Source of the DNA: an uncultured Bacteroidales bacterium
GTDB lineage: Bacteria; Bacteroidota; Bacteroidia; Bacteroidales; Muribaculaceae
Assembly (NCBI GenBank): GCA_902792895.1
Contig: CADBBK010000002.1
Location: 106,906 to 170,905 of the forward strand
Reading direction: 5' to 3'
DNA length: 64,000 nucleotides
Positions 55,707-57,659 of this stretch are shown piece after piece. Position 1 is the first letter of the stretch, and the number at the start of each line of letters is the position of its first letter. The position numbers and the translations under genes are program-made. The notes under the pieces are model-generated. The model was given only the letters and a program-made list of their open reading frames with translations, was not told the origin of the DNA and did no database searches.

Positions 55707-55714
55707 TAATTTTG
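55707..55714 (+). promoter_or_regulatory. Promoter -7 box for the CCA-adding enzyme fusion
   Basis: TAATTTTG, 20 bases before the ATG at 55734. It diverges from the rho promoter, whose -33 lies 20 bases away. Confidence 0.45.
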
Positions 55715-55733: not shown

Positions 55734-57659
55734 ATGGATATTGACCGTCAAAAAATAGCCGAACATGTGAATCTGCCAGTGATGAAACTGGTGGGATCGG
55801 TAGCCGATGAACTCAACCGCGAGTGCTACGTTGTTGGGGGGTACGTCAGGGACATCTTCCTGGAACGGCCCAGCAATGACATGGACTTTGTGACGGTGGG
55901 CAGCGGTATCGCTGTTGCCAAGGCCGTGGCTCATCGCTTGGGCAAACGGGCCCATCTCGCTGTGTTTCGCACCTATGGCACGGCTCAGGTAAAGACTCGG
56001 CAATGGGAACTGGAATTTGTGGGTGCCCGCCGTGAGTCTTATCACCGCGAGAGCCGCAACCCCATCGTCGAAGACGGAACGCTCGATGATGACCAGCGCC
56101 GACGTGATTTCACCATCAACGCGATGGCCATCTGCTTGAACAAGGAGCGCTATGGCGAACTCTTGGACCCCTTTGACGGCATCGGGGACATGGAGCGGCG
56201 CATTATCCGCACCCCGTTGGATCCCGATATTACCTTCAGCGACGACCCGTTGAGGATGATGCGTGCTGTGCGGTTTGCTACACAGCTTGACTTTGATATC
56301 TATCCCGAGACATTTGATGCCATCAAGCATAATGCCGAGCGCATCAAAATCATTACCCGTGAACGCATCGCCGACGAATTGATGAAAATCATGCGCAGTG
56401 CCCAGCCCTCACGTGGCTGGAAATTGCTCGATCAGTGCGGCCTGCTGCAACTCATCTTCCCTGAATTGGCGATACTCAAGGGTGTCGAGACGGTCAACGG
56501 CCGTGGACATAAAGACAATTTCATGCACACCTTGCAGGTGCTTGACAACGTGGCTCAGTCCAGTGACAACGTGTGGCTGCGCTGGGCCGCACTGCTGCAC
56601 GATGTGGGCAAGGCGCGCACCAAGCGTTGGGACCCGCAACTGGGTTGGACATTCCACAACCACAACTTCGTGGGTGAAAAAATGGTGCCCAAGATCTTTG
56701 CCAAGATGCGCTTGCCGCTGAACGAGCACATGAAGTATGTGAAGAAACTCGTCGGGCTGCATATGCGTCCCATTGCCCTAGTCGAGGATGAGGTCACTGA
56801 CAGTGCTGTGCGCCGACTGTTGTTTGATGCGGGCGACGATATTGATGACCTGATGACGTTGTGCAAGGCCGACATTACCAGCAAAAACCAGAGCAAGGTG
56901 CAGCGCTTCCGTGAGAATTTCGACCTGGTAAAGCAAAAACTAGTGGACATTGAGGAGAAAGATCGCGTGCGCAACTTCCAGCCGCCTGTCGATGGTGAGG
57001 AAATCATGACGACTTTCAACCTGGCCCCGTCACGACCTGTGGGCTACATCAAGGACGCCATCAAGGACGCCATCCTCGACGGCAAGATTACCAACGATTA
57101 TGCTTCGGCCTATCGCCTCATGCTCGACAAAGCCAGCGAACTGGGCATCACTCATGCTCATGAGGGCCAACTTTGCCACACCACAATGCAGACACCCGTG
57201 GGCACGCTTCATATTGCCGCTTCTACCAGTGGCATTGCGCTCATTGGCTGGAGCTATGATGAAGTCGATAAGATTGCCAGGAAACTGAAATTACAGCCAA
57301 TAGAAGCCAATACTCCCCTACTCGCCCAATGCATCAAGCAACTCAGCGAATACTTTGACGGCACACGTCATGAGTTTTCACTGCCCCTCCACCCCGCGGG
57401 TACTGAGTTCCAGATGAGCGTGTGGGAAGAATTGCAGCAGATACCTTACGGAGAGACCATATCCTATGGCGAATTGGCAAAACGTATAGGCAATCCCAAT
57501 GGATCACGTGCCGTAGCTCAAGCAAACCATAACAATTCCATTGCCATAGTCATCCCCTGCCATCGTGTCATCAATGCCGACGGCAGTTTAGGCGGATATG
57601 CTCCAGGACCCGACAAGAAACAGGCCTTGCTCAGCCTTGAGCGAGAGCACAAAGCCTGA
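55734..57659 (+). CDS. Fusion: CCA-adding tRNA nucleotidyltransferase plus O6-alkylguanine-DNA alkyltransferase
   Basis: One uninterrupted 641-residue frame holds two enzymes. Residues 1-480 are a tRNA nucleotidyltransferase/poly(A) polymerase family protein: VVGGYVRD (33-40), catalytic DMD (49-51), the RRDF and TRERIADE motifs, and an HD domain (HD at 289-290). The end of this part, IKDAIKDAILDGKITNDYA, is the usual C-terminus of the family. Residues 485-641 are a complete Ogt/MGMT-type alkyltransferase: PVGTLHIAAS start, DNA-binding helix (GETISYGELAKRIGNPNGSR) and the acceptor IPCHRV with C609. The first part would add or repair tRNA 3' CCA ends; the second repairs O6-methylguanine. The tRNA gene in this window lacks an encoded CCA. 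The second half is slightly more A/T-rich. Confidence 0.9.
   Translation: MDIDRQKIAEHVNLPVMKLVGSVADELNRECYVVGGYVRDIFLERPSNDMDFVTVGSGIAVAKAVAHRLGKRAHLAVFRTYGTAQVKTRQWELEFVGARRESYHRESRNPIVEDGTLDDDQRRRDFTINAMAICLNKERYGELLDPFDGIGDMERRIIRTPLDPDITFSDDPLRMMRAVRFATQLDFDIYPETFDAIKHNAERIKIITRERIADELMKIMRSAQPSRGWKLLDQCGLLQLIFPELAILKGVETVNGRGHKDNFMHTLQVLDNVAQSSDNVWLRWAALLHDVGKARTKRWDPQLGWTFHNHNFVGEKMVPKIFAKMRLPLNEHMKYVKKLVGLHMRPIALVEDEVTDSAVRRLLFDAGDDIDDLMTLCKADITSKNQSKVQRFRENFDLVKQKLVDIEEKDRVRNFQPPVDGEEIMTTFNLAPSRPVGYIKDAIKDAILDGKITNDYASAYRLMLDKASELGITHAHEGQLCHTTMQTPVGTLHIAASTSGIALIGWSYDEVDKIARKLKLQPIEANTPLLAQCIKQLSEYFDGTRHEFSLPLHPAGTEFQMSVWEELQQIPYGETISYGELAKRIGNPNGSRAVAQANHNNSIAIVIPCHRVINADGSLGGYAPGPDKKQALLSLEREHKA

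Follow-up and report, generated by a model that had tools for sequence, protein, structure and literature searches.

The window, a 64,000-nucleotide stretch of the genome of an uncultured member of the Muribaculaceae (assembly GCA_902792895.1, contig CADBBK010000002.1), contains a single gene in which the coding sequences of a tRNA nucleotidyltransferase (CCA-adding enzyme, cca) and an O6-alkylguanine-DNA alkyltransferase (ogt) are joined end to end. The source genus is called Sodaliphilus here, a name that we take to be the right one. The gene starts with ATG and runs through 641 codons to a TGA stop with no internal stop codon, and its parts are as follows (window coordinates, residue numbers of the fused protein).

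55734-57659, plus strand: cca-ogt fusion gene, 641 aa in a single open frame (open reading frame and translation, Pfam, genus search)
55824-56210, plus strand: nucleotidyltransferase head PolyA_pol, residues 31-159 (Pfam, 1.8e-25)
within 55824-56210, plus strand: head motifs GGYVRD (35-40), DxD (D49/D51) and RRD (123-125), from the sequences of 71 fused proteins
56289-56471, plus strand: RNA-binding region PolyA_pol_RNAbd, residues 186-246 (Pfam)
56520-56777, plus strand: HD domain, residues 263-348, with H289 and D290 (Pfam)
57141-57191, plus strand: junction of CCA enzyme and Ogt, about residues 470-486 (alignment of 71 fused with 25 unfused CCA enzymes)
57177-57392, plus strand: Ogt N-terminal ribonuclease-like domain Methyltransf_1N, residues 482-553 (Pfam)
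57405-57644, plus strand: Ogt DNA-binding and catalytic domain DNA_binding_1, residues 558-637 (Pfam, 3.2e-34)
within 57405-57644, plus strand: Ogt catalytic-domain residues Y578, R592, N601, PCHR (608-611) and E636 (sequence comparison)
57558-57560, plus strand: codon of the alkyl-accepting cysteine C609 (sequence)

The names GGYVRD, DxD and RRD are those that we presume to apply to the nucleotidyltransferase head, and we likewise assume the customary roles of the Ogt residues (the PCHR cysteine, Asn hinge, Arg finger, Tyr and Glu). The sequence TAATTTTG at 55707-55714 on the plus strand, ~20 nt 5' of the start codon, is a candidate for what we take to be the Bacteroidota -7 element, TAnnTTTG.

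The initial annotation read this frame as a full tRNA nucleotidyltransferase (DxD, HD domain) followed by a full alkyltransferase (PCHRV, C609), and the Pfam matches and conserved motifs agree. At the level of sequence the gene is thus confirmed as a complete CCA-adding enzyme joined to a complete Ogt, with the catalytic residues intact in both. An AlphaFold2 model computed with 51 fused sequences (mean pLDDT 89.5, pTM 0.63) predicts that the CCA and Ogt parts are each well folded, with their relative placement uncertain. In Foldseek searches the model matched structures of CCA- and A-adding enzymes (3wfp and others), the M. tuberculosis OGT-DNA complex (4wx9_A, TM (target) 0.86) and also the C-terminal domain of E. 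coli Ada. The fusion is the only protein of the source genome that matches PF01035 (DNA_binding_1), and a second PolyA_pol protein of the same genome is encoded on contig C10.

The fused protein has the features of both parent families. Like CCA-adding enzymes of the PolyA_pol/HD type, it contains a head with GG, DxD and RRD motifs, an RNA-binding region and an HD domain (Pfam, Foldseek) in the usual order and of the usual length, and the CCA part ends as it does in unfused relatives, but the protein then runs on into Ogt; its scores against the CCA equivalog models that NCBIfam lists stay below their cut-offs. Like Ogt/MGMT (AGT) proteins, it has both Pfam domains (Methyltransf_1N and DNA_binding_1), the PCHRV cysteine and the active-site set of Arg, Asn, Tyr and Glu, but here Ogt forms the C-terminal part of 641 aa and has a tRNA enzyme in front. 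The C-terminal position of Ogt in a longer protein is shared with Ada, whereas the Ada zinc-binding domain and AraC-type HTH, which stand ahead of Ogt in L147, L160 and L166, are absent from the window protein (Pfam). An alkyltransferase-like (ATL) protein is ruled out by the acceptor C609, present in all 71 fused proteins, and the AGT-EndoV type by the lack of an endonuclease V domain in the window protein (Pfam).

Full-length, one-frame CCA-Ogt fusions are present in 77 of the 101 genomes of the source genus. Eleven others have an unfused CCA enzyme ending at about residue 473-485, six gave no match, and seven were set aside rather than counted as fused: G020 and G024 have the halves split over two contigs, G007 has fragments, the G085 match reaches the first base of its contig while still in the CCA part, G076 (one draft assembly) has the CCA and Ogt parts in different frames, G030 has a headless variant described below, and G060 has only a second type of CCA enzyme. 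Elsewhere in the family (397 genomes; among the matches listed, with at least about 720 bits) the full-length fusion occurs in all five g28 genomes and in three of nine g23 genomes; five of the other six g23 genomes are unfused, and the sixth (G206) has a fragment running from the CCA part into Ogt. Among the matches listed for 393 genomes of the order and 395 of the phylum, CCA-Ogt was found in the source genome only, and those listed for a class sample of 169 genomes included no further case. The initial annotation had regarded the two-domain architecture as something to be sought across Bacteroidales, and the search thus placed it throughout much of one genus and in two more Muribaculaceae genera. 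An assembly or sequencing error at the junction is ruled out by the 77 genus genomes with one frame, and since 71 fused genes that come from many assemblies and encode distinct proteins are all open across the junction, this is neither a chance event nor a stop codon lost in a single assembly. Comparison of these sequences therefore confirms the join as old and real. The gene neighbours of the fusion vary among relatives.

Alignment of the 71 distinct fused proteins with 25 unfused enzymes places the end of the CCA part where the free enzyme ends, and the normal start of Ogt follows within a few residues, or up to about 20 in g23 and g28. In a relative, G126 (genus g27), cca and ogt are two separate genes, with the end of cca overlapping the start of ogt by 4 nt, and in G110 (g11) they lie in a same-strand cluster of four genes, the two genes between them resembling queD and queE by eye. 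Neighbouring genes of the G126 or G110 type can fuse through one small change, and we infer from these arrangements that the fusion arose when cca and ogt, lying side by side, became joined in frame; the overlapping pair of G126 lends support to the earlier suggestion that a stop codon was lost between adjacent genes. A cluster of this make-up (cca, queD-like and queE-like genes, then ogt, all on one strand) lies at L215 (2728-5653, minus strand).

Both halves are under purifying selection. For the CCA part the median pairwise dN/dS is 0.104, taken over the 557 of 2485 possible pairs whose pS lies between 0.05 and 0.60; for the Ogt part it is 0.217, taken over the 500 of these 557 that were computable. 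These are rough values by the Nei-Gojobori method in which synonymous sites are largely saturated; the highest Ogt pN/pS in any pair is 0.91. Sixteen Ogt residues, the active site included, are invariant in all 71 fused proteins, among them Y578, R592, N601, P608, C609, H610, R611 and E636. In the CCA part all 71 proteins have GGYVRD, D49, R124, D125, H289 and D290 without variation, and D51 and R123 are each conserved in 70.

Among 14 chosen genomes, 11 have the fusion as their sole PolyA_pol protein; the source genome encodes two such proteins, and G030 and G060 encode the second type only. In the source genome an encoded CCA was flagged by a simple end test in 6 of 34 tRNA genes (ARAGORN on 30 loci, 30 of the 42 tRNA matches having been read). 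Because the fusion is usually the sole PolyA_pol protein and few tRNA genes encode CCA, CCA addition should still be needed, and it is probably carried by the fusion in most fused species; in the source genome the second CCA-type enzyme could share it. That second enzyme occurs in 6 of the 101 genus genomes. At L167:2943-5594 and L169:3-5311 its gene precedes an RlaP gene, and at L169 it also follows TROVE/Ro60 and RtcB genes in an RNA-repair operon (Pfam on L167 and L169).

The fusion and a separate Ogt gene exclude one another within the genus. A genus-wide search, which scored few candidates per genome, gave separate Ogt genes in none of the 77 fused genomes versus 8 of the 11 unfused ones (Fisher p 2.6e-9), and a PF01035 scan was then run on 55 chosen genomes. 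All 19 intact fused genus genomes scanned had exactly one match, the fusion itself, and 8 of the 11 unfused genomes had one or more; the other three, G008, G012 and G035 (82, 77 and 87% complete), had no PF01035 match. The sole Ogt-family match of unfused G045 is a short ATL-like protein in which PCHR is still present, and one in unfused G004 is an HTH-Ogt protein. Within g23, fused G122 has a second, short match, and G218 and G240 have one each. From this pattern the fusion looks like the ordinary Ogt of the cell. Genome G030, which carries the second-type CCA enzyme, encodes a headless variant (L228:1836-3317, plus strand) that is without residues 1 to about 172 and retains the HD domain and a complete Ogt; its RNA-binding match is weak (21.6 bits against a cut-off of 22). 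This variant fits selection on Ogt apart from CCA addition, as far as one draft genome with a possible misassembly can indicate.

Phylogenetic trees point to a history of both gain and loss. Two unfused clades of the genus are nested inside fused ones in the CCA trees, and a single clade of fused CCA parts is rejected (p-AU 1.7e-7), so that losses, re-gains or transfers must have occurred; the Ogt tail seems to have undergone loss in addition to gain. In the best Ogt trees the fused Ogts of Sodaliphilus and those of g23 and g28 form two separate clades, possibly reflecting two independent CCA-Ogt joinings, but one clade of CCA-fused Ogts is not rejected (p-AU 0.385 and 0.381). Fission of the fusion was considered as the source of the free Ogts in unfused genus genomes and rejected, as L172-L177 group with other Muribaculaceae Ogts and not with fused ones; the HTH-Ogt protein L170 sits on a long branch whose position is unsure, and L171 and L178 are short ATL-like proteins. 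No Ogt remnant was found (best E 1.7) when as much as 1.5 kb of downstream DNA was searched at each of 31 unfused CCA loci from this genus and others; several of the stretches were shorter than 1.5 kb, and two of the loci are the same gene.

Ogt is also attached to other proteins in Bacteroidales. A fusion to LpxB (lipid-A-disaccharide synthase) is present in G635, from another family of the order; of 99 genomes searched in that family, 13 carry it full-length (7 in g189 and 6 in g506); a probable further example in G1343 is split over two contigs. Among 20 stretches fetched for their long open frames, 13 hold non-CCA Ogt fusions (three of them LpxB) and seven hold none. The fusions are as follows, with partners assigned by Pfam at L247, L251, L254, L258, L260 and L262 and by likeness at the other loci.

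L165:1270-2922 (minus strand), L260, L261 and L262: LpxB-Ogt, Ogt C-terminal
L251, L252, L253 and L254: UbiD-type decarboxylase-Ogt, Ogt C-terminal, same family as LpxB-Ogt
L246-L250: GNAT acetyltransferase-Ogt, Ogt C-terminal, same family as LpxB-Ogt
L258: HhH-GPD glycosylase-Ogt, Ogt C-terminal, same family as LpxB-Ogt

A single lineage for the 40 non-Ada fused Ogts in the tree, a group defined after its inspection, is rejected (p-AU 3.5e-8). LpxB-Ogt forms two clades in the best tree, a split that is not firm (p-AU for one clade 0.468). With unrelated partners and a single fused-Ogt lineage rejected, the common factor of these fusions is Ogt rather than the function of the partner, although in HhH-GPD glycosylase-Ogt the two parts could be functionally paired for alkylation repair. 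Overall, fusions of this kind are uncommon, as among the matches listed for the class sample of 169 genomes only the source genome and G471 (Ada-like) have an Ogt frame longer than 400 aa.

We therefore favor, with a probability of about 0.72, a fusion of neighboring genes for an independent tRNA CCA enzyme and a single-use DNA alkyltransferase, in which the benefit of the join is to expression or dosage. We infer both activities, their independence, the neighboring-gene route and the dosage benefit. The N-terminal ~476 residues would add the CCA end to tRNAs or restore it, and the C-terminal 165 residues would act as a general O6-alkylguanine/O4-alkylthymine DNA alkyltransferase of which each molecule is spent once, the two halves working independently on tRNA and on DNA. 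Every copy of the housekeeping enzyme would come with a single dose of suicide repair domain, and Ogt would thus need no promoter or start of its own. In those genomes that keep the join, it would be retained because it ties a single-use repair protein to steady housekeeping production. Because related bacteria attach Ogt to quite different household enzymes, the window gene looks like one instance of a recurrent passenger fusion of a suicide enzyme with a housekeeping gene, and not like a new tRNA-repair system. That the CCA partner is kept across most of the genus, and was possibly joined twice, is something that passenger status alone does not predict.

There are precedents for attachment of this domain. 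The PDB matches include many engineered chimeras with an Ogt/MGMT domain (SNAP-tag and MGMT chimeras), which by analogy show that it tolerates attachment well. Natural alkyltransferase fusions named in the accessible part of PMC10779285 are AGT-EndoV of Ferroplasma, ATL-EndoV and AGT-2 of C. elegans, with no CCA partner among them; AGT-EndoV and AGT-2 resemble the window protein in that an alkyltransferase is naturally joined to another protein, but their partners are an endonuclease and a histone-like protein, whereas here the partner is a complete RNA-specific housekeeping enzyme. Nothing on fusions was found in the portion of PMC4437013 that was available, and no description of a CCA-Ogt fusion was found in the searches of open-access papers. 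According to excerpts of PMC7403430, MGMT in recurrent glioma becomes fused behind diverse 5' partners and its expression rises; this is, by analogy, the nearest known case of such capture by partner genes, sharing an alkyltransferase placed behind an unrelated partner, although the glioma fusions are somatic, some to a 5' UTR only, and the window fusion is an inherited bacterial gene. The window gene unites an essential enzyme of RNA with a DNA-repair enzyme of the suicide type, genus-wide and in a form that looks functional. Together with the LpxB, UbiD, GNAT and glycosylase fusions, it suggests that Bacteroidales Ogt has repeatedly lost its independent gene and become an appendage of another protein. 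It raises the question of what sets the cellular dose of a repair protein that works only once, and is a caution that domain fusion need not mean a functional link.

The two activities might instead reside partly in separate proteins, made from an internal start near residue 485 or by proteolysis, such that the open frame overstates the fusion. An in-frame ATG lies between residues 470 and 495 in 46 of the 71 members, often at 485 and with the window member included, and some free Ogt could also be made in this way. The other 25 have no ATG in this interval and five of the 71 have no ATG, GTG or TTG, leaving no start position common to all, and the frame is kept through the junction in all 71 genes, which makes this account improbable, if the best placed of the alternatives.

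Slightly less probable again is a functional coupling, in which the tRNA-binding half takes Ogt to RNA for dealkylation of tRNA or its CCA end, or alkylated Ogt alters CCA addition as a damage signal. The join has been long retained across the genus and is found in three genera, the linker is tight at a few residues, and five positions (480, 500, 529, 596 and 620) are typical of the Sodaliphilus fused Ogts and uncommon in free ones; Q596 and G620, both in the catalytic domain, differ from most free Ogts, and the five could mark a specialized role. Against this, other fusions with the same domain order pair Ogt with unrelated enzymes that do not act on RNA, the unfused genomes with a separate Ogt-family gene have Ogts that, where they fall in the main clades, group with free ones, the headless G030 protein still has its Ogt, and neither the DNA-binding Arg nor the hinge Asn varies. 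In human MGMT a 2'-OH clash at Gly131 is stated to hinder the repair of RNA (PMC10814553, in the part accessible), and residue 595, which aligns by eye with Gly131, is Ala or Gly both in the fused and in the free Ogts. The proposals in the initial annotation that the tRNA-binding part presents the repair domain, or that RNA is dealkylated, thus gained no positive support, and we similarly doubt that the join links the upkeep of tRNA ends to alkylation damage and thereby lets translation respond to alkylation. Least credible of all is that Ogt is an inactive, tolerated read-through tail, for although this half evolves faster and one pair reaches a pN/pS of 0.91, it is under purifying selection with its 16 invariant residues and excludes a free Ogt.

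Several long or unusual Ogt frames were examined and not accepted as new fusions. Of the seven stretches above that hold no such fusion, as judged by eye, L255 has a chance-looking front part, L263 and L265 have Ogt first with odd tails, L256, L257 and L264 are plain Ogt genes, and L259 has an HTH-like front of the Ada type. In G624 (L164) an Ogt frame of 516 aa has a front part that matches no Pfam model and appears to be open by chance. On the CCA side, a 678-aa open frame whose front part is without a Pfam match includes a CCA enzyme in another Bacteroidota family (L231:2559-4595, minus strand).
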